From Cyanobium sp. CACIAM 14 (GTDB lineage: Bacteria; Cyanobacteriota; Cyanobacteriia; PCC-6307; Cyanobiaceae): 64,000 nt of DNA. The notes beneath the pieces were generated by a model, which made no database searches, was not told the DNA's origin, and saw only the letters and a program-made list of their open reading frames with translations. Position 1 is the first letter of the stretch, and each line of letters opens with the position of its first letter. The stretch is from the NCBI GenBank assembly GCA_000708525.1, contig JMRP01000001.1, positions 62,001-126,000 on the forward strand, given 5' to 3'. The translations under genes were made by a program, and so were the position numbers. Of the stretch, positions 1,767 through 52,047 are shown piece after piece.

Positions 1767-3047
1767 ATGCTCCGTCGTCTGCTCATCCGCGGGGTGCATC
1801 TGCTCGAAGCCCCCGACCGGCCCCCGCGGCGGGCCGACGTGCTGATCGAGGGCGGCCTGCTGGCGGCGATCGATCCGCTTCCCGAGGCAGAGACCCCAGA
1901 GGCCCCGCGGAGCTTCGAAGGCGAGGGCTGCTGGCTGGGACCCGCCCTGGTGGATCCCCACAGCGTGCTGGAGGATCCGCTCCTGGGTCGGGCGGAAACC
2001 CTCGCCAGCCTCGCGGCCGCCGCCGCGGCAGGTGGTTACGGAACGGTGGCCCTGCTCCCCTGGGCCTCCACCTGGCGCGACCGGCCCGAACGGCTGGGGC
2101 TGGCCTGGCCCGCCCCCCTGCGCCTCCTTCACTGGGGCAGCTTCAGTCGCGACGGCCTCGATCAGGACCTGGCCCCCCACGGCGACCAGCTGGAGGCCGG
2201 GGCCTGCGGCCTGGCAGCCGGCCCTGCCCTGCCGCCGATCGACCTGCTGGAGAGGGGTCTGCGCCTCGGGGAGATGGGCGACCGGCCGGTGCTGCTGCCG
2301 GCCCGGGACGGTTCCCTGGCCCGGCGTGGCTTCGTGCGGGAGCGGGTGGAGGCTCTCCGGGCCGGCTGGCCCCTGGATCCCCCCGGCAGCGAAACCGTTC
2401 CCCTCGAGACCCTGCTCTCCCTGGCCGACGACCTGCCCGCTCTGGCGCTGCGACTGATGAACCTCTCGACCGCCGAGGCGGTGGAGCGGTTGGCTCGCCT
2501 GGAGCGGCCTCCCCTGGCCTCGGTGAGCTGGTGGCATCTGGTCGCCGACAGCGGAGGTCTCGATCCGGTCGAGGAAGGCTGGCGACTGGTTCCTTCCCTG
2601 GGAGGGCCCCAGGACCGCCGGGCCCTTATCCAGGCCGTGGCCGATGGAGTCGTCGCCGCCGTCGCCGTGCACCATGTGGCCCTCGATCCGGAGGAGCAGC
2701 TGCTGCCCCTGGATCAGCGCCGGCCGGGAGTGGCGGGCCATGGCCTGGTGCTCCCGCTGTTGTGGGAGGAGCTGGTGGGCCGCCAGGGCTGGCGGCCGGA
2801 GCAGCTCTGGCAGGCCCTCTGCTGGGGTCCCTCCCGCTTCCTGGCGTTGCCGGAGCCGACCCTGGCCCCGGGCAGCCGCCAGTGGCTTCTCTTCGATCCG
2901 GCCCGCGCCTGGTGCCCGGCGGAGGAGGCCGACCCCTCCCTGGCCGCCAACCGTCCCTGCCGGGAGCGCCGGCTGCAGGGCAGGGTGATCGCCTCAGGGC
3001 TCACCGATCCGGCTGGCTGGGCTGTGGCAGCGGACCTGCCGAGCTGA
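1767..3047 (+). CDS. dihydroorotase-like protein, probably catalytically inactive
   Basis: A 426-residue amidohydrolase-fold protein with the overall order of class I dihydroorotases: an N-terminal beta-sandwich (LLIRGVHLL...ADVLIEGGLLAAID), a barrel and a closing beta segment. The metal-binding signature, normally Asp-x-His-x-His-x-Arg, reads DPHSVLEDP at residues 63-71, so the second His is Val67. The catalytic TDHAPH segment near the C-terminus reads AVHHVALDPEEQ, so the Asp is lost. The following GLVLPLLW still aligns with the GLE...LPL segment of true enzymes. Non-catalytic dihydroorotases are known as partners of aspartate transcarbamoylase in some bacteria, which is one possible role here; this is inference. 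Its 3' end overlaps the convergent lepB by 47 bp. Confidence 0.8.
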   Translation: MLRRLLIRGVHLLEAPDRPPRRADVLIEGGLLAAIDPLPEAETPEAPRSFEGEGCWLGPALVDPHSVLEDPLLGRAETLASLAAAAAAGGYGTVALLPWASTWRDRPERLGLAWPAPLRLLHWGSFSRDGLDQDLAPHGDQLEAGACGLAAGPALPPIDLLERGLRLGEMGDRPVLLPARDGSLARRGFVRERVEALRAGWPLDPPGSETVPLETLLSLADDLPALALRLMNLSTAEAVERLARLERPPLASVSWWHLVADSGGLDPVEEGWRLVPSLGGPQDRRALIQAVADGVVAAVAVHHVALDPEEQLLPLDQRRPGVAGHGLVLPLLWEELVGRQGWRPEQLWQALCWGPSRFLALPEPTLAPGSRQWLLFDPARAWCPAEEADPSLAANRPCRERRLQGRVIASGLTDPAGWAVAADLPS

Positions 3048-3756
3048 AGGGGAAGAAGCGCCAGAAGGCCCGGCCGATCAGTTCGCTATCGGGCAGGAGC
3101 GGACCGCCTGGCCAGAAGCGGGCGTCCCAGCTGTTGGCCCGGTTGTCTCCCATCACCACCAGATGGCCGGGGGGCACCACCACGTCGATCGTGCGGCAGG
3201 GGCCGACCCCCTGGCGGTCGACGGGGCAGTAGTTCTTGACGTAGGGCTCGTCGAGGGGGCGGCCGTTGATCGTGACCCGGCCCCGGGGGTCGGCCACCAC
3301 CCGCTCCCCCGGCAGGCCGATCACGCGCTTGATGTAGGCATCGCAGGCCGGCTGCTGGATCCCCGGCAGGGAGCCGATCAGAGGCAGGTTCACCAGCAGG
3401 CAGTGCAGGGCACCCGGCTTGGTGGGCCCCGTGAGGATCGGATCGAAGTGGTAGGGAGAGTGGAACACCACCACCTCGCCGCGCCGGGGCGGGCGGAAGC
3501 GGTAACTCAGTTTTTCCACCAACAGCCGGTCCTGAAGCTGCAACCCCGGCAGCATCGAGCCGGAGGGGATGTAGCGGGCCTCCACCAGGAACTGGCGGAT
3601 GCCGAGGGCCACCGCCAGGGTGATCAGCACGCTGCGCCAGAACGCCCAGGGGTTCTCCTCCCCTTCCTCCCGTCGACCCTGGTGACCCTGCCGATCCTGG
3701 GGGTGAGAGGTCAGATGACGGTCGCCGTCGTCGGCCTGGGGATCCGAAGGGGTCAA
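3001..3756 (-). CDS. lepB: signal peptidase I
   Basis: Type I signal peptidase that cleaves signal peptides from proteins exported across the plasma or thylakoid membrane. One N-terminal membrane helix (WRSVLITLAVALGIRQFL) is followed by the catalytic serine box YIPSGSMLPGLQLQDRLLVEK and the lysine box YIKRVIGLPGERV; the later GDNRANSWDARFW segment is the conserved box E. The catalytic domain contains an extra Cys-containing loop. The start is uncertain: I chose TTG at 3756 (LTPSDPQADDG). GTG at 3802 is an alternative, and the start must lie below 3824 if the divergent gene is not to be overlapped. A Gln/Arg/Asp-rich cytoplasmic head precedes the helix. It converges with the dihydroorotase-like gene, sharing 47 bp. 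Confidence 0.92.
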   Translation of the reverse strand: MTPSDPQADDGDRHLTSHPQDRQGHQGRREEGEENPWAFWRSVLITLAVALGIRQFLVEARYIPSGSMLPGLQLQDRLLVEKLSYRFRPPRRGEVVVFHSPYHFDPILTGPTKPGALHCLLVNLPLIGSLPGIQQPACDAYIKRVIGLPGERVVADPRGRVTINGRPLDEPYVKNYCPVDRQGVGPCRTIDVVVPPGHLVVMGDNRANSWDARFWPGGPLLPDSELIGRAFWRFFPFSSAGPLPQPSQPDR

Positions 3757-3823
3757 GGGATTCGTGCGGCGGGTTCCGTGGTCGGGAGGCAGATTAGGCA
3801 CCTGTCCGCCCGAAGCGTCCCCG

Positions 3824-8121: not shown

Positions 8122-9912
8122 ATGCGCGTCTCCCGCCTCATGCTGGTGACGCTTCGCGACGACCCGGCCGAAGCGGAGATCACCTCCCACAAGCTGCTGC
8201 TGAGGGCCGGGTACATGCGACGCCTGGCTCCCGGGATCTTCGCCTACCTGCCCCTGCTCTGGAGGGTGCTTCAGAAGATCTCCGCCATCATCCGGGAGGA
8301 GATGGCAGAGGTCGACGCCCTCGAGACCCTGCTCCCCCAGCTGCAGCCCGCCGACCTCTGGCGGCGCAGCGGCCGCTGGGACGGCTACACCGCCGGCGAG
8401 GGAATCATGTTCCACCTGATCGACCGCCAGGAGCGGGCCATGGGCCTGGGCCCCACCCACGAGGAGGTGGTGACGGAACTGGCGGCCGACCTGCTGCGCT
8501 CCTATCGCCAGCTGCCGGTCTGCCTCTATCAGATCCAGACCAAGTTCCGCGATGAGATCCGGCCGCGCTTCGGCCTGATGCGGGGCCGGGAATTCATCAT
8601 GAAGGATGCCTATTCCTTCCATGCGGATGAGGCCTGCCTGCGCCGCACCTACGCCGCGATGGATGGGGCCTACCGACGCATCTTCGAGCGCTGCGGATTG
8701 CGCGCGGTGGCCGTCGAAGCCGACAGCGGGGCCATCGGCGGTTCCGCCAGCCAGGAGTTCATGGTCACCGCCGAGGCCGGTGAGGATCTGATCCTGGCGA
8801 GTCCCGACGGCCGCTACGCCGCCAACCAGGAACGGGCGGTCTCGTTGCCGCCCCCGGCCGTCCCCCTGGAGGTGGAGGGTCTGCGGACCCTGGCCACCCC
8901 CGGCCAGACGAGCATCGAGGAGCTCTGTGCCGCCCACGGCTTCGATCCCACCCAGACCGTCAAGGTGCTGCTGCTGCTGGCCCGGTTCGCCGCCGCCCCC
9001 GCCCGCGCCGTGCTGGTGTGCCTGCGCGGTGATCAGCAGCTCAACGAGGTCAAGCTGGCCAACGCGGTCACGGCCCGCTGCCCCGATGCCGGCGCCCTTC
9101 TGGAGATCGGCCCTCTGCTGCCGGACCATCTCGCCGGCGGGCTGGCCGGGGGTGTGCCGTTCGGGTCCGTGGGCCCCCATCTGGAGGATGCCCTCCTGCC
9201 AAAGGGAGAGGCCTCCGGCGCAGGGCCCGTGCTGCGCCTGGCCGATTCCAGCGCTGCCGAGCTGGAGGCCTTCGTCTGCGGGGCCAACCGCGAGGGTGAG
9301 CACCTGGTGGGGGCCCGCTGGGGCGAGCTCTGCCCGCTCCCCGAGGTGGTGGATCTGCGCGCGGCCCAGCCTGGAGATCGCTGCCTGCACGATCCCTTCC
9401 AGCGGCTGGAGGCGGCCCGGGGCATCGAGGTGGGCCACATCTTCCAGCTGGGTCGCAAGTACTCCGAGGCCCTCGAGGCTCGCTTCACCGATGAGACAGG
9501 CAGGGAGGAACCCCTGTGGATGGGTTGCTACGGCATCGGCGTCTCCCGCCTGGCCGCGGCGGCCGTGGAGCAGCATCACGATGCCGACGGTATCCGCTGG
9601 CCCCTGGCGATCGCGCCCTATGCGGTGATCATCGTGATCGCCAGCAGCCAGGACCCGGTGCAGGTGGCCCTGGCCGAGCGGCTCTACGGCGACCTGGGCC
9701 GTGCCGGCATCGATGTCCTTCTGGACGATCGCCCCGAGCGGGCGGGTGTCAAGTTCAAGGACGCCGACCTGATCGGCATTCCCTGGCGGCTGGTGGTGGG
9801 GCGCTCTGCCGCCGAGGGCAGGGTGGAGCTGGTGGACCGCAGCGGCGGCGGCGGCCGCCAGGACCTGAGCGCCGAAGAGGCGCTCGAGCGGCTGCTTCGG
9901 CTCCATGCCTGA
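8122..9912 (+). CDS. proS: prolyl-tRNA synthetase
   Basis: Charges tRNA-Pro with proline. At 596 residues it is the bacterial-type ProS with the editing insertion between class II motifs 2 and 3. Visible signatures are the N-terminal MRVSRLMLVTLRDDPAEAE, the active-site GPTHEEVVTEL, motif 2 FRDEIRPRFGLMRGREFIMKD, SASQEFMV, and motif 3 GCYGIGVSRLAAAA, followed by the anticodon-binding domain. It starts at ATG 8122. Its last 8 nt overlap the start of psb27, so the two are probably co-transcribed. Confidence 0.97.
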   Translation: MRVSRLMLVTLRDDPAEAEITSHKLLLRAGYMRRLAPGIFAYLPLLWRVLQKISAIIREEMAEVDALETLLPQLQPADLWRRSGRWDGYTAGEGIMFHLIDRQERAMGLGPTHEEVVTELAADLLRSYRQLPVCLYQIQTKFRDEIRPRFGLMRGREFIMKDAYSFHADEACLRRTYAAMDGAYRRIFERCGLRAVAVEADSGAIGGSASQEFMVTAEAGEDLILASPDGRYAANQERAVSLPPPAVPLEVEGLRTLATPGQTSIEELCAAHGFDPTQTVKVLLLLARFAAAPARAVLVCLRGDQQLNEVKLANAVTARCPDAGALLEIGPLLPDHLAGGLAGGVPFGSVGPHLEDALLPKGEASGAGPVLRLADSSAAELEAFVCGANREGEHLVGARWGELCPLPEVVDLRAAQPGDRCLHDPFQRLEAARGIEVGHIFQLGRKYSEALEARFTDETGREEPLWMGCYGIGVSRLAAAAVEQHHDADGIRWPLAIAPYAVIIVIASSQDPVQVALAERLYGDLGRAGIDVLLDDRPERAGVKFKDADLIGIPWRLVVGRSAAEGRVELVDRSGGGGRQDLSAEEALERLLRLHA

Positions 9913-10360
9913 TCCCCGTAGGATTCCGCCAGATGACGCTCCCGCCTTGGTTGCCTTCCTGCGCCGCAGCCTGCTCCGCCCCCTGCTGGCCCTTGGACTG
10001 TGCCTCTGCCTGGGGCTCACCGGCTGCAGCCAGGCCGCGGCCGGACTCAGTGGCAACTACGTCGACGACACCGTGAGCGTGGCCCAGACCCTGCTCACCA
10101 CAATCGCTCTGCCCCAGGACGATCCCTCCCGCCAGGAGGCGGAACTGGAGGCGCGCCAGCTGATCAACGGCTACACCGCCCTCTACCGGCCCCGCCGTGA
10201 CATCCGCGGCCTGGCCTCCTTCACCACCATGCAGACCGCCGTCAACGCCCTGGCGGCCCACTACGCCGGCTACGCCAATCGTCCGCTCCCCGACACCCTT
10301 CGCAGCCGTCTGGAGAAGGAGCTCAAGAGCGCCGAGGCCTCGGTGACGCGAGGCGCCTGA
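9905..10360 (+). CDS. psb27: photosystem II assembly lipoprotein Psb27
   Basis: Psb27 binds the lumenal face of PSII assembly/repair intermediates (CP43) and keeps the manganese cluster from assembling too early. The 151-residue precursor has a signal peptide with a clear lipobox LTGC, the lipidated Cys being residue 41, and the family core SGNYVDDTVSVAQTLL...ALYRPRRDIRGLASFTTMQTAVNALAAHYAGYANRPLP. The start ATG 9905 overlaps the proS stop by 8 nt (ATGCCTGA). The stop codon lies inside the first copy of a short tandem repeat that continues downstream. Confidence 0.95.
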   Translation: MPDPRRIPPDDAPALVAFLRRSLLRPLLALGLCLCLGLTGCSQAAAGLSGNYVDDTVSVAQTLLTTIALPQDDPSRQEAELEARQLINGYTALYRPRRDIRGLASFTTMQTAVNALAAHYAGYANRPLPDTLRSRLEKELKSAEASVTRGA

Positions 10361-44476: not shown

Positions 44477-45508
44477 TCAGGCTGCCGATGCCCGCCCCAG
44501 GCGACCGCGGTGGGGAACGCCGGCGGTTTCGAGCACCGCCTCGAGGGTGGGCGCCAGGCTCACCAGGCCGAACCGTTCCGGTGGACTCACCGGTTCGTGA
44601 ACGAAGTGGCGCTGGCGGATCGAGAAGCGGTCCCAGGCGTTGACATCGATGCGCAGCAGCCGGATCAGTCCCTCGATCAGCCATCCCTGCAGGTCGAGGC
44701 CGATCGGTGGCACCCACATCCGGCGCCAGCGGCACAGGCTGGCCACGGCGCCGTTGACGGTGATCGGTGCCTGGCCCAGCACCAGACGGCGGATGGGCCC
44801 CTGGCCCGGCTCAGGATTGGGGCCGTGGGGGGTGGTGGCCAGATGGGCGCAGACCGTGGCGATGTCGGCGGCATGGATGAAATGGAAGCTGGCCTCGGTG
44901 CGCAGCCAGCGTGCCAGCCACAGCCAGCCCAGGGCCTCCTTCAGGCCGGCCGTGAGATAGCTGGTGGGGTGGGGATCGGCCTTGCCCAGCGATCCCCCGA
45001 ACACCAGGGTGGGGAACACTGCCACGATCCTCTCCGCCAGGGGGTGGACCTCCAGGTCCTGCAGGCAGGTGGCCTTGGTCTGGATGTACTCGGTGCCGTA
45101 GGCCGTGGCCTCCGGCAGGAGGTTCAGGCGTCTGTCGAGGATGCTGGCGGTGGAGAAGTAGATCACCTGCTGCAGCCGCTCCGGGTCGGTGAGCCGCAGC
45201 AGTTCCTTCACGGCAAGCACGTTCACCTGGCGGGCCCGTTCCGGATCGCCCCAGGCGGTGGCGGTGTGGATGATCCTGTCGGCGCTGGCGATGGCTGCCC
45301 TGTGGGGCTCGAGATCCCGCAGATCTCCCACCAGCAGGGTGATGCGGGGGTGGTCAGCGGGGACGGCGCGGAGCTTGGCGGGATCCCGCAGCAGCAGCAG
45401 CAGCCGGGCCTCGCTGTTCGCCAGGAGGTTCTCTGCGATGTACTGGCCGACGCAGCCGCTGGCGCCGGTGATCAGGATGCGCTGGGGCCCGGAGCTAGGG
45501 ATGCTCAA
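44477..45508 (-). CDS. NAD(P)-dependent epimerase/dehydratase (extended SDR)
   Basis: A 343-residue extended short-chain dehydrogenase. The coenzyme motif is [19 protein letters not shown] (GxxGxxG), the acidic/basic selector is in LLRDPAKLR, and the active-site Tyr-x3-Lys is seen as YIQTK after YFSTAS. The substrate is not evident; nucleotide sugars, steroid-like lipids or flavonoid-like reductases share this fold. It starts at TTG 45508, sharing 4 nt with the hemE stop (TTGA), so the two genes are translationally coupled. Confidence 0.87.
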
Positions 45509-46563
45509 ACAGTGGCCCCCAGTAACTGGTTGACGGCCTTGCCGGTCTCGAAGAAGACCCGGGCGTTGTCTTCGGGGGTGCCGGGCAGGATGCCGTGGCC
45601 CAGATTGAGGATGTGGCGGCGGCCGCGGGCCTTGCGCACGGTGTCGAGGATCCGCTCGCGGATGGCTTCGGGGGTGCCGAACAGCAGCCCCGGATCCACG
45701 TTCCCCTGCACTCCCACATGCTGGGGCAGGCGGGCACAGCCGTCGGCCATGTCCACGGTCCAGTCGAGGGAGATGAAGTCCACCCCCGTGCGGGCCATGC
45801 GCTCGAGCACCCCGGCACTGCCTGAGATGTAGAGGATCAGGGGGGTGTCGGGATGGGTCGCCTTCACCTGATCGATCACCCGCTTCTGATACGGAGCGGC
45901 GAACACGTCGTAGTCGATCGGGCTGAGCTGGCCGGCCCAGGAATCGAACAGCTGCACCACCTGGGCGCCGCTTTCGATCTGATAGCGCACGTAGGTGGCG
46001 ATCGAATCGGCCAGGTGACCCAGCAGCCGGTGCAGCAGCGCGGGCTCCCGGAAGGCCATCGCCTTGATCACCGAGTAGGTCTTGGAGCTCCTGCCCTCCA
46101 CCGCGTAGGCGGCGAGGGTCCAGGGGGCGCCCACGAAGCCCAGCACCGCCGCCGCGTTGCCCACATCGGCCCGCAGCCGGGTCAGCACCTCGCCCACGAA
46201 GGGCAGCGCCTCGGCCGGATCGAGGGGCCGCATGGCGTCCACCTGCTCGGCGCTGCGGATCGGCGGATCGATGATCGGCCCCTTGCTCTCAATGATGTCG
46301 AAGTCGATCCCCATGCCCGGCAGCGGCGTGAGGATGTCGGAGAAGAGGATCACGCCATCGGGGCGGAAGGCGTGGAAGGGCTGCATCGAGATCTCATAGG
46401 AGAGATCGGGGTTCTCCGAGCGTTCGCGGAAGCCGGGATGGCGGTCGCGCAGGTCGCGGTAGACCTTCATGTAGCGGCCGGCCTGACGCATCATCCACAC
46501 CGGAGGCCGCTCCACCTGCTCACCTCGGGCGGCGCGCAGCAGCAGGGGGGCGGTGTCGGCCAT
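45505..46563 (-). CDS. hemE: uroporphyrinogen decarboxylase
   Basis: Decarboxylates uroporphyrinogen III to coproporphyrinogen III in heme and chlorophyll synthesis. The 352-residue protein has the signature [21 protein letters not shown] (active-site Arg pair) and [17 protein letters not shown], then [17 protein letters not shown] and [12 protein letters not shown]. Start ATG 46563. It heads a two-gene unit with the SDR gene. Confidence 0.97.
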
Positions 46564-46847
46564 GGATGGCTGGGATGACGATGCAGCAACCTAGCCGAAG
46601 GGGCCGTGCCGACCCGAAACGATTCTGCCCGTGGAGCCGATCCCGGCGGCGTCCGGCAGCGCCCCGACCACACCATCGCCCCGAACAGCATCGACGGCAC
46701 GGCAGGCGCTGCCGCTCGCGCTGTCGATCCCCCCGTTGCGCTGGTTGTGGCTGCTCTGCCGCGGCTCGGCCGGAGGCTGCCCCGGCGCCCCTAGCGTTCC
46801 TGTGCCACCACGACGGCAGGCCGTTCCCTCTGTTGACACTCGGGCCG
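46564..46847. other. divergent intergenic region upstream of hemE
   Basis: About 280 bp between hemE and the next rightward gene. Open frames here give Arg-rich or low-information peptides; a 62-codon frame from GTG 46606 cannot be excluded but lacks family features. The region probably contains the hemE promoter. Confidence 0.35.
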
Positions 46848-47405
46848 GTGAGGTCTCTGCCGCCGGTGATGGCGATCGCCTTCGGCTGGGGCCTGGCGGA
46901 GGGGACGCTTTTCTTCATCGTTCCCGATGTCTTCCTCACCCTGCTGGCGCTGGGACCGCTGGGGCCCCTTCTGCTGGCCTGGGCCGGGTCCATCCTGGGA
47001 TCGCTGGCCGCGGTGCTGCTGCTGTTCCGCTGGATGGCGGCCGATCCGGGGGCCGTGCTGAACCTGATCGAGGCGCTCCCGGGGATCTCGCCGGAGATGA
47101 TCGCTTCCGTCACGGCGGCGATGGCCCACCACGGCCTGCCCTGGTCTCCCTTGCTGGTGACCGGAGGCATCCCCCTGAAGGTCTATGCGGTGGCGGCGGC
47201 AGGTCTTCAGCTGCCGCTCGCGAGCGTGCTTCCCTGGACCCTGTTCGCCCGTGTGGTGCGCATCGGCCCGGTGCTGCTGCTGGCCCTGGCGGTGAAGCGG
47301 CTCGCAGGGCAGTCCGTCCGGCGCCATCCGCGCCGATGGTTCTGGGGTGTGATCCTGGCGTGGACGGGGTTCTACATGATCTATTTCCAGCGAATGGGCT
47401 GGTGA
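46848..47405 (+). CDS. small polytopic membrane protein (VTT/YqaA-like)
   Basis: A 185-residue hydrophobic protein with four to five helices: MAIAFGWGLAEGTLFFIVPDVFLTLLALGP, LLLAWAGSILGSLAAVLLLF, PLLVTGGIPLKVYAVAAAGLQLPL, and FWGVILAWTGFYMIYFQRM. The glycine- and proline-rich re-entrant-like FFIVPDVFLTLL resembles the SNARE-associated/VTT (DedA, YqaA) group, which is linked to lipid scrambling or transport; this is by eye. GTG 46848 or ATG 46869 may be the start. Its stop is 1 bp from the convergent acyltransferase stop. Confidence 0.6.
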   Translation: MRSLPPVMAIAFGWGLAEGTLFFIVPDVFLTLLALGPLGPLLLAWAGSILGSLAAVLLLFRWMAADPGAVLNLIEALPGISPEMIASVTAAMAHHGLPWSPLLVTGGIPLKVYAVAAAGLQLPLASVLPWTLFARVVRIGPVLLLALAVKRLAGQSVRRHPRRWFWGVILAWTGFYMIYFQRMGW

Positions 47406-47406
47406 C

Positions 47407-48075
47407 TCATTCCCAGCCGCTGGAGGGCAGCTCGGCCAGCAGAGCGGCCATGCGCTCCTGGAGAGCGGCCATGAAGCGGCGGCGGTCGCCGTCCCAGGGC
47501 AGCGGTTCACCGACCGCCACGTCACAGCAGAAGGGCACCAGCAGGGCCTCTCCGCGGGGGAGGGCCTTGCCCAACCCCCGCAGCACCACGGGCGTGCAGC
47601 TCAGCCCCGGCCGCCGCTGCAGCAGGTGGGCCACGCCATGTTTCAGGGGCCCCATGGTCTCCGGTTCGCCCCGGGTTCCTTCCGGGAACAGGATCACGAT
47701 CCTCCCCGCGTCCAGGGCCGCCTCCACCGGTGCCAGGGGATCGCGCCGGCCCGGCCGGCTGTCGCGTTCGATCGGGATGATCGCCAGCACCCGCCGGGCA
47801 AACCAGGAGAGGAGGCCATGGCTGAGGAAATAGTCGGCGGCGGCCACCGGCCTCAGCCGCGGCATCAGGCTCCCGGGGAACAGGCTCATCAGCACGAACA
47901 CGTCCAGGTGACTGTTGTGGTTGGCCACCACCAGGGCGGGTCCCTGTCGCGGCAGGTGCTGCGGATGGCGCACGTTGACCCCCAGGATCAGTGCCAGCAC
48001 GGGCCGCACGAGCAGCAGGAAGAACAGGCGCCGCAGCCAGGCGGGATAGGGGGCCTCCGGCGGGCTCAAGGCCAT
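47407..48075 (-). CDS. 1-acylglycerol-3-phosphate acyltransferase-like (PlsC family)
   Basis: A 222-residue membrane-associated acyltransferase. The catalytic NHNSHLD (HxxxxD) lies in LVVANHNSHLDVFVLMSLFPG and the glycerol-phosphate-binding FPEGTRGEPETMG follows in its usual place, preceded by RVLAIIPIERDS. It is the last gene of a three-gene, translationally coupled lipid unit: its start overlaps the cdsA-like stop by 10 nt. The main PlsC of the cell may lie elsewhere, so this could be a specialised acyltransferase. Confidence 0.9.
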   Translation of the reverse strand: MALSPPEAPYPAWLRRLFFLLLVRPVLALILGVNVRHPQHLPRQGPALVVANHNSHLDVFVLMSLFPGSLMPRLRPVAAADYFLSHGLLSWFARRVLAIIPIERDSRPGRRDPLAPVEAALDAGRIVILFPEGTRGEPETMGPLKHGVAHLLQRRPGLSCTPVVLRGLGKALPRGEALLVPFCCDVAVGEPLPWDGDRRRFMAALQERMAALLAELPSSGWE

Positions 48076-49046
48076 CCCGGCCACTGCACCTGGCCCGTGT
48101 AGGTGCTCCACCGGAACAGCACGTAGACGAAGTGGAAGAACAGGGGGGCGGTGTAGGTGAGGCTGTCCACCCGGTCGAGGATCCCGCCATGGCCAGGCAG
48201 CAGGGAGCCGCTGTCCTTGATGCCCAGATCCCTCTTCAGCGCCGAGATGTTCAGGTCGCCCACGAAGCCCCCCAGGCCGATGATCAACCCCGCCGCCAGG
48301 GAGGCCGGCCAGGCCAGGGGCGTTAGCAGTGGGCCCAGCAGGGTCCCCAGCAGGGTGGTGCTGGCCACCCCCCCGACGAAGCCGGCCCAGGTCTTGTTCG
48401 GGCTCACCTTCGGAGCCACCGGCGGTCCCCCCAGGCTCCGCCCCCAGAGGTACTGGGCGATGTCGTTGAGCTGGGTGAGCAGCACGAGGTAGAGCACCAG
48501 GCCCGGGCCCACGGCCCGGCCGGGGTCGTCGGCGAGCCGCAGGATCAGCAGGAAAGCGGCATGGCTGAGGCTGAACACGGTGGTCATCAGGCCCCACTGG
48601 ATCGTGCCGGCCGCCCGCAGGTAGCCCCCCGTCTCGCCGATCGCCAGCATCCGCACCGGCAGCAGCAGGAAGCAGAACACCGGGATGAAGGCCAGGAACA
48701 TCCCGTACCACTCCATCGCCACCAGCAGGTACTGGACGGGAATGGCCAGGTAGGCCCAGAAGAGCACGCGCCGGTCGACGCGGCGGGTGGGGATCAGGGA
48801 GACGTACTCCTTCAGGGCCAGAAAGCTGATCAGGGCGAAGAAGCCGATCGACACCCCGCGGCCCACCACCAGGGCCACCAGGAAGACGGCCACCATCTGC
48901 CACCAGGTGCGCACCCGCAGCCGCAGGTTTTCCGCGTCAGGCCCCGGGCGGCGGCGGCTGATCACGGCCGAGGCCAGGCTGGCCGCCACCAGCAGCCCCA
49001 GGATCGCCGCCATGACGGCCAGCACGGGGGTGGGCGGCAGGGTCAT
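48066..49046 (-). CDS. CDP-diglyceride synthetase-like (CdsA/YnbB family)
   Basis: A 326-residue membrane protein with about eight helices. The phosphatidate cytidylyltransferase signature is at the C-terminus: FVGDLNISALKRDLGIKDSG, followed by LLPGHGGILDRVDSL; upstream is PKVSPNKTWAGFVGG. It makes CDP-diacylglycerol from phosphatidate and CTP. The context with a CDP-alcohol phosphatidyltransferase on one side and a PlsC-like acyltransferase on the other suggests a dedicated set, and it resembles the YnbB branch more than the housekeeping CdsA (inference). It overlaps the upstream gene by 4 nt (ATGA). Confidence 0.87.
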   Translation of the reverse strand: MTLPPTPVLAVMAAILGLLVAASLASAVISRRRPGPDAENLRLRVRTWWQMVAVFLVALVVGRGVSIGFFALISFLALKEYVSLIPTRRVDRRVLFWAYLAIPVQYLLVAMEWYGMFLAFIPVFCFLLLPVRMLAIGETGGYLRAAGTIQWGLMTTVFSLSHAAFLLILRLADDPGRAVGPGLVLYLVLLTQLNDIAQYLWGRSLGGPPVAPKVSPNKTWAGFVGGVASTTLLGTLLGPLLTPLAWPASLAAGLIIGLGGFVGDLNISALKRDLGIKDSGSLLPGHGGILDRVDSLTYTAPLFFHFVYVLFRWSTYTGQVQWPGWP

Positions 49047-49681
49047 GGGGCCGCGGGGCGCGCGGGAGCCGCGAGATCGGTGGCCGTGGTGAGGGCCTGC
49101 CGGGAGCGGTTGACGATCGTGAGCATCGCCAGCAGGGCCATGGCGGTCAGGAGGGCTCCCACCCACCGTCCTGCAGGAACCCCGAGCCCCAGCACCAGGG
49201 CCATCAACCCGAACAGGAAGGCCCGGTCGCTCTTGCCCAGGGGACCGTCGTAGCGGCGGTCCGCTCCGATCTGCACCGCCACAACCCCGGTCATCTCCAC
49301 GATCACCCCCAGACTCACGACCAGGGCGAGCAGCACCGGAGGGATGCCGCCCACCAGCGCCAGTGGCAGGTAGAGGACCGTGTCGGCCAGCACGTCACCC
49401 AGTTCGTTGAGCAATGCCCCCAGACGGCTGGCCTGGGCGAATTCCCGCGCCACCATCCCGTCGAGGGCGTTCAGGGCCATGCGCACCAGCAGCACCGGCG
49501 GCAGGGCCAGCAGGCAGGCCCGCTGCCCGCCCGTCAGAGCCAACGCCCCACCGGTGAGCACCGAGAGCCCCAGGGCGGTGAAGGTCAGGCCGTTGGCGGT
49601 GACTCCCACTCCCACCAGGACGTTGGCCAGGGGCCTCAGCAGGGACTGGAAGCGGGGCTTGAGGTCGTAGATCGTGGCCAC
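49043..49681 (-). CDS. CDP-alcohol phosphatidyltransferase (YnbA-like)
   Basis: A 212-residue membrane enzyme with about six helices. The family signature D-x2-DG-x2-AR-x8-G-x3-D-x3-D is recognisable with exact spacing but reads N71ALD74G..A78R79...G88ALLN92ELGD96, so two of the four metal-ligand Asp are Asn. The N-terminus IYDLKPRFQSLLRPL and this Asn variant are as I remember for the E. coli YnbA group. Normal members join CDP-diacylglycerol to glycerol phosphate, serine or inositol; the alcohol here is unknown. GTG 49681 lies 20 nt after the glgB stop, so glgB and the lipid genes may share a transcript. Confidence 0.85.
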   Translation of the reverse strand: MATIYDLKPRFQSLLRPLANVLVGVGVTANGLTFTALGLSVLTGGALALTGGQRACLLALPPVLLVRMALNALDGMVAREFAQASRLGALLNELGDVLADTVLYLPLALVGGIPPVLLALVVSLGVIVEMTGVVAVQIGADRRYDGPLGKSDRAFLFGLMALVLGLGVPAGRWVGALLTAMALLAMLTIVNRSRQALTTATDLAAPARPAAP

Positions 49682-49701
49682 GGCCGACCTGCTCTCACGG
49701 C

Positions 49702-51996
<2,295 letters not shown>

Positions 51997-52047
51997 GGAG
52001 GATCGCTGGGACACGCGCCGGGAGCTTAGGGCGCTGGAAGCGCGTCC

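Follow-up and report, generated by a model that had tools for sequence, protein, structure and literature searches.

We analysed a window of 64,000 nucleotides (nt) from the cyanobacterium Cyanobium sp. CACIAM 14 (contig JMRP01000001.1, positions 62,001 to 126,000 of the forward strand) and found that the CDP-alcohol phosphotransferase homologue of a three-gene lipid operon carries asparagine at D1 and D3, two of the four aspartates (D1 to D4) of its metal motif. This double Asn is more than chance, as it is present in all 86 sequences of the sample, and it is common to all close relatives examined rather than peculiar to the operon in the window. The three genes, here called A, B and P, form an acquired module with a fourth gene, X. 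We hold, about as readily as we doubt it, that A-B-P encodes a complete pathway of its own, gained by horizontal transfer, for a single minor phospholipid, in which A has an altered metal site. The features, numbered from the first letter of the window, are:

49043 to 49681, minus strand: A, YnbA-family CDP-alcohol phosphotransferase homologue, 212 residues; GTG start, double-Asn motif
48066 to 49046, minus strand: B, YnbB/CdsA-type CDP-diacylglycerol synthase, 326 residues; PF01148
47407 to 48075, minus strand: P, PlsC-type acyltransferase, 222 residues; PF01553
46869 to 47405, plus strand: X, 178-residue membrane protein; convergent to P, P-adjacent homologues elsewhere, possible distant VTT/DedA relative
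46566 to 49725, no strand: extra stretch between hemE and glgB, missing in 6 of the 12 congeners examined
49702 to 52014, minus strand: presumed glgB, upstream flank of the extra stretch
45505 to 46563, minus strand: presumed hemE-like gene, downstream flank of the extra stretch

The three overlapping minus-strand genes, at 47407 to 49681, lie where the preliminary description had placed them. Its assignment of a YnbA/YnbB/PlsC-type operon was borne out by YnbA-family homology and by the Pfam matches of A to PF01066 (31.3 bits, cut-off 22), B to PF01148 (220.7 bits, cut-off 24) and P to PF01553 (81.1 bits, cut-off 23). A starts with GTG at 49681, and its last sense codon reaches 49046, followed by the stop codon at 49045-49043. 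B runs from ATG at 49046 to 48066, its start overlapping the stop of A by 4 nt (ATGA), and P from ATG at 48075 to 47407, sharing 10 nt with B. The start of A lies 20 nt from the stop of the upstream gene, a gap already given in that description. We take this gene to be glgB, as in that description, and the downstream gene to be hemE-like. By eye, the C-terminal CdsA motif is intact in B, and P contains the NHX4D and FPEGTR motifs. B scored below the NCBIfam equivalog PRK11624 (100 bits against a cut-off of 385, over residues 149-312 only), and P below the NCBIfam model AGP_acyltrn (TIGR00530; 60.8 bits, cut-off 102.95).

Elsewhere in the genome of the strain (71 contigs, 96.6% complete), a second PF01066 gene was detected, whose motif DWADGVLAR...LDPLTD is canonical, along with a second PF01148 gene and four more PF01553 genes, and the A-B-P operon is therefore an extra set. 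The earlier suggestion of a separate phospholipid stands as the best reading of this extra gene set; the product itself would be a deduction from the genes.

The double-asparagine motif and the metal site

The eight signature residues of the CDP-alcohol phosphotransferases, D1xxD2G1xxAR...G2xxxD3xxxD4, have been described as absolutely conserved (PMC4634129). A departs from this signature at D1 and D3. Its motif, N-x2-DG-x2-AR-x8-G-x3-N-x3-D, reads N71-A-L-D74-G-M-V-A-R ... G88-A-L-L-N92-E93-L-G-D96, with Asn at D1 (N71) and D3 (N92) and Asp kept at D2 (D74) and D4 (D96), and the variant reported in the preliminary description is thus confirmed as N71-x2-D74-G75...N92-x3-D96.

The survey of the Asn variant proposed there yielded both Asn in the window copy and in 85 of 85 relatives, including E. 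coli YnbA, as judged by sequence patterns and alignment. The relatives comprise the best 80 of 159 from a species-genome scan, E. coli K-12 YnbA and four plasmid copies (30 plasmid records matched, of which four were fetched); this sample leans to close relatives of the window copy, and the search patterns contained neither Asn. The strict motif pattern fits 83 of the 86 sequences (the window counted), and the three off-pattern sequences also have both Asn, namely L019 and L033, which differ at the Arg, by their printed sequences, and L041 by alignment. Eight further copies, seven from the same phylum and one from Pseudomonadaceae, carry both Asn as well. Among distant members, L106-L109 and L111-L114 have both, and further motif residues are missing in L110. 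We make no claim of a single origin for the double Asn, since in a quick tree the distant rows that carry it have branches 4 to 10 changes per column long. Nine stretches of viral contigs matched a pattern and none encodes a relative, and no paper describing the double Asn was found in searches of the open-licence PMC literature.

A shares 44-64% identity over its full length with 47 relatives in a 48-row alignment, in which N71, A72, D74, G75, A78, G88, N92, E93, D96, D100, E129, R142, Y144, G146, P147, G149-A154 and R192 are, among others, invariant. An 88-row alignment includes two extra window copies (L088, L091) and two mistrimmed rows (L066, L068), both of which have the double Asn in their direct sequences. 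N71, D74, N92, E93, D96, D100, E129, R142, R153 and R192 are also invariant in all filled rows of the larger alignment. This invariance of the motif and other key residues argues against decay of A.

The replaced positions are central to the metal site of related enzymes. In MtPgsA1, Mg-1 is held by D68 (D1), D71 (D2) and D89 (D3), the last of which is a ligand of Mg-2 as well, and D93 (D4) presumably acts as the base (PMC6506517). In MjPSS, D1 and D3 each contact both metals (PMC8633023), and the YnbA family therefore replaces exactly these two aspartates. The invariant E93 of A sits at the position of MtPgsA1 A90 and MjPSS Ser63, both of which lie in the acceptor site (PMC6506517, PMC8633023). 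In the AlphaFold2 model of A (predicted local distance difference test score 93.3, from 43 sequences), E129 lies in the fourth membrane helix. The best fold matches of this model are the phosphatidylinositol phosphate (PIP) synthases (5d91, Z 19.9, 3.1 Å, 193 residues), followed by AF2299 (4o6m, Z 18.6); the phosphatidylglycerophosphate (PGP) synthase 7drj gave Z 11.9 over 168 residues. In a profile alignment, R153 and R192 of A align with R155 and R195 of MtPgsA1, which are thought to hold the phosphate of inositol phosphate (PMC4634129). A thus resembles the PIP synthases MtPgsA1, RsPIPS and MkPIPS in the fold and the two phosphate-binding Arg, and differs from them in the Asn at D1 and D3, the Glu at the A90 position and an aliphatic residue at the position of R94.

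Occurrence in cyanobacteria and gene neighbourhoods

A was found in 2 of 201 genomes of the family, in none of the 10 congeners listed, and in 8 of 386 genomes of the phylum with matches of at least 238 bits; at E ≤ 0.001 the phylum scan matched 204 of the 386, all but these 8 scoring 78 bits or less. Of 121 family genomes scanned for X, only that of the strain itself gave a match. The 3.2 kb that separate glgB from hemE in the window are taken up by A-B-P and X. Six of 12 congeners have hemE directly after glgB and lack the stretch 46566-49725; for the other six, blastn did not detect hemE in the region retrieved. In Cyanobium sp. FGCU52 (L027) the order is glgB-A-B-P-hemE, without X. Because the stretch is missing in congeners and A is rare in the family, we take A-B-P with X to be an acquired module and the linkage to glgB to be local. 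Transfer is the simplest reading of the distribution; for A-B-P, loss in many congeners may be an alternative to gain. In the quick tree, the window copy of A groups with G156 and L027 (SH-aLRT, a Shimodaira-Hasegawa-like approximate likelihood-ratio test, 86 and 94), next to two alphaproteobacterial rows in a placement that is not strongly supported (SH-aLRT 86). The glgB neighbour noted earlier is not a general feature: among the fetched loci it occurs only at the window copy and L027, and a general link to glycogen metabolism is rejected.

Other members of the phylum keep the same core. The G156 locus (L147) has A-B-P, and L148, L149, L150 and a Pseudanabaena plasmid (L005) have A-B-P plus a short YnbC-like gene (2556-3356, 2802-3602, 2951-3805 and 9344-10129, respectively), which in L005 is annotated as a methyltransferase. 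Distant double-Asn homologues in the same phylum also adjoin B- and P-like genes (L152 4118-7580, L153 2616-5534), and in L153 two different distant double-Asn CDP-alcohol enzymes flank P and B.

We examined 80 fetched loci, 79 of which were assigned to 11 phyla (62 to Pseudomonadota). With every match above 50 bits in a locus counted, 74 of the 80 loci contain B and 70 contain P; in 63, B lies downstream of A in the same orientation, no more than 200 nt away. Ten loci lack B and/or P. Four of these (L017, L031, L059, L061) end within 1.4 kb of A, and six (L042, L057, L062, L065, L081, L085) have 6 kb available yet no P, four of them also no B. In four Thiobacillus-type loci (L018, L023, L042, L073) an extra frame of about 150 codons follows B (e.g. 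L042 8543-9016).

Two larger forms of the cluster were observed. One adds YnbC-like (hydrolase/methyltransferase) and YnbD-like (PAP2/phosphatase) genes, found in 19 and 17 of the 80 loci, respectively, and the other adds X. Among the 71 loci that extend 3 kb or more downstream from A, X and the YnbC-like gene never occur together (0 with both, 19 with X only, 17 with the YnbC-like gene only, 35 with neither; Fisher p 0.0035, the loci being related), which is suggestive of mutual exclusion. The YnbC/YnbD label requires 8 changes on the quick tree against a shuffled mean of 21.6, with L098, L101 and L102 set as "other" despite a short YnbC-like gene beside each. Among plasmid copies, a 19-kb Burkholderia ambifaria record (L007 4949-11293) carries A, B, P, the YnbC- and YnbD-like genes and a hypothetical gene beside cellulose-synthesis genes.

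Gene X and the relation to arc1 and ynbABCD

The operon extent given earlier holds for A-B-P, and the set also includes X (46869-47405, plus strand), which is convergent to P in the window with 1 nt between the stops. X homologues occur in 20 of the 80 loci. In 19 they follow P, in its orientation, at a distance of 0-160 nt (the one in L044 being a partial match); in L014 the homologue lies about 4 kb away. X as an obligate part is not supported, and its label needs 15 changes on the quick tree (shuffled mean 19.2; 4 of 500 shuffles as low). The window copy of X has no credible Pfam match, including none to the VTT domain (PF09335). Six of 19 X members match this domain at E ≤ 1, the best with 32.2 bits, and none of the 19 reaches the cut-off of 33.9. 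A comparison with six E. coli DedA-family proteins by hhalign gave a weak similarity spanning most of X (E 3.5e-4, probability 37), and a weak viral fold list was headed by three SNARE-associated (VTT) proteins (E 0.27 to 1.2). Searches of the PDB by sequence and fold returned nothing convincing, the single protein YqaA showed no similarity, and plasmids gave no match. X is thus a possible VTT relative.

The relative with in vivo evidence is antagonism resistance cluster 1 (arc1, PA2541-PA2536) of P. aeruginosa rather than E. coli ynbAB. This cluster is Gac/Rsm-controlled and needed under attack by the type VI secretion system (T6SS) (PMC8926400, eLife 2022). When the gene hit hardest in each arc operon was deleted, fitness under T6SS attack fell, and complementation restored it in part; judging from the strain list, the deleted arc1 gene is PA2541 (PMC8926400). 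The genes PA2541-36 are written arc1A-F, and the methods name Arc1F where the primers target PA2541 (PMC8926400). Five of the six genes resemble phospholipid genes according to the authors, who name no product in the parts of the paper covered (PMC8926400). The PA2541 start, as given by a published primer, was found once in 398 Pseudomonadaceae genomes, at L146, whose 8-kb region contains 5 of the 10 published primer stretches tested. As in the window, L146 encodes a double-Asn YnbA and has B and P. Its order is A-C-D-h-P-B, where C and D are the YnbC- and YnbD-like genes and h, one more gene, was placed by a weak match, whereas the window has A-B-P with X. In the strain's own genome, a YnbC query gave only a weak generic hydrolase match (24.3 bits) and a YnbD query, in a search without a positive control, gave nothing. 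About 900 bases past the window end, a weak YnbC-hydrolase match lies near a weak PlsC-type match (G000:C1:126874-128234).

The likeness to E. coli ynbAB noted earlier stands for YnbA (L003), which has the same double Asn and is followed by YnbB. The K-12 stretch differs from the window in having no P match and in containing ynbC and ynbD. A conjugative-typed IncK2/Z E. coli plasmid (L004 6998-11094) carries A-B-P-C and a short D-like match, and thus has P, unlike the K-12 stretch. E. coli YnbB makes CDP-diacylglycerol in vitro, yet does not replace CdsA (PMC6362211, PMC7018664). The interpretation in the preliminary description is thus supported in part, and needs to be widened to a YnbA/arc1 group of which A-B-P with X is a small form.

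Proposed pathway and alternative explanations

In the pathway we favour, P would acylate lysophosphatidic acid to phosphatidic acid, B would activate this to CDP-diacylglycerol, and A would exchange the CMP of CDP-diacylglycerol for a small alcohol, probably one carrying a phosphate. The active site of A would then operate with Asn for D1 and D3 and with D2, the base Asp (D4) and the invariant acids E93 and E129 in place. X, which accompanies A-B-P in a subset of bacteria, may act on the product within the membrane, for instance by transferring it to the other side. Speaking for this pathway are the frequent company of B and P around A, seen also at distant double-Asn homologues, the invariance of key residues, the PIP-synthase-like fold with both phosphate-binding Arg, the fitness cost of the arc1 gene deletion under T6SS attack and the CDP-diacylglycerol synthesis by E. 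coli YnbB. Inositol phosphate as the acceptor is disfavoured. Enzymes acting on inositol phosphate conserve R94 of MtPgsA1, which is nearly essential there (PMC6506517); at its equivalent, position 97 of A, every filled row has Val, Ile or Leu, and the inositol-phosphate synthase family PF07994 had no match in the strain's genome in a search that found 5 of 14 controls, 3 of them over the cut-off. Since the R155 and R195 equivalents are kept, the acceptor would be a phosphate-bearing alcohol other than inositol phosphate. A broader proposal, which we put forward tentatively and with more doubt than conviction, is that the YnbA/PA2541 family represents a second catalytic type of the CDP-alcohol phosphotransferase fold, with Asn at D1 and D3 and a site rebuilt by E93 and E129, making a dedicated phospholipid from its own PlsC-CdsA-transferase cassette in many phyla, with X as a membrane carrier in some.

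Several observations, the lack of R94 among them, weigh against the favoured pathway. A might be inactive as a transferase by analogy with its relatives, since replacing any one of D1-D4 with alanine impairs Cho1 of C. albicans, and yeast Cpt1 loses its activity with alanine at D3 or D4 and keeps the wild-type level with alanine at D2 (PMC8727905). X was not found in 60 of the 80 loci, some of which are shortened by contig ends, and the 12 kb of L151 (G337) contain a double-Asn A but no match to B or P. The arc mutants equalled the wild type in survival of heat, peroxide, salt and detergent (PMC8926400). An E. coli ynbB knockout reportedly matched the parental strain in growth and showed no significant change in MPIase. 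YnbD, which belongs to the larger clusters, failed to replace the PGP phosphatases and is reported to have no ascribed function. No reported product of any YnbA-family member was found in the open-licence PMC literature.

We considered four alternatives. In the first, the module is a device for defence against antagonism or envelope damage like arc1, with a lipid product serving that defence. The control and requirement of PA2541-36 described above speak for it (PMC8926400), and sporadic presence and acquisition fit a defence cargo. The arc1 genes C and D are represented in the strain's genome by the generic hydrolase match and by nothing, respectively, although neither outcome proves the point. 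None of the four genes A, B, P and X matched a PADLOC model. We judge this explanation rather doubtful, and it is compatible with a minor phospholipid as the product.

Somewhat less probable, and in our view unlikely, is that A is a pseudoenzyme, which would bind CDP-diacylglycerol or another lipid without turnover and regulate or scaffold B and P. Two of the four metal-motif aspartates are Asn in all members examined, and the harm done by alanine at D1 or D3 in the related enzymes cited above points the same way. However, the sample shows no variation at D2, D4, G75, A78 or either phosphate-binding Arg, a constraint that seems stronger than binding needs, and the partly complemented fitness cost of the arc1 gene deletion, no proof of catalysis by itself, also speaks against it (PMC8926400).

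It is improbable that the operon is a module for an MPIase-type glycolipid (GlcNAc-PP-diacylglycerol), in which a sugar phosphate would accept the phosphatidyl group from A. The nucleophile would then be a phosphate in place of a hydroxyl, which could lessen the need for a full metal site, and A keeps the acceptor-phosphate Arg. Overproduction of YnbB in E. coli raises MPIase, for which it is seen as a backup (PMC6362211, PMC7018664). However, compound I is reportedly a product of CdsA and of YnbB themselves, so that A would not be needed, and the lack of a significant MPIase change in the ynbB deletion argues in the same direction.

Least probable of all is that A is an ordinary PGP or PIP synthase with a drifted motif, in an operon adding housekeeping copies: although PIP synthases are its best fold matches and the R155 and R195 equivalents are kept, A scores far below the NCBIfam models for pgsA (TIGR00560; 23.5 bits, cut-off 109.1) and PIP synthase (31.2 bits, cut-off 170), the R94 equivalent is aliphatic, the genome has no PF07994 match and a canonical PF01066 gene elsewhere, and the double Asn is uniform in the sample where drift would scatter. 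A is a CDP-alcohol phosphotransferase homologue and should not be filed as a canonical member, a PIP synthase or PgsA.

YnbA from E. coli K-12 and its counterpart in a defence cluster of P. aeruginosa thus depart from the CDP-alcohol phosphotransferase signature at the same two positions, with the surrounding residues kept. With this double-Asn group one can test which products ynbAB and arc1 yield and whether the fold functions in the absence of the classical metal ligands, and the three- or four-gene form described here offers a small version for the product search. With two of four supposedly essential aspartates replaced, A may make a membrane lipid in an unusual way.

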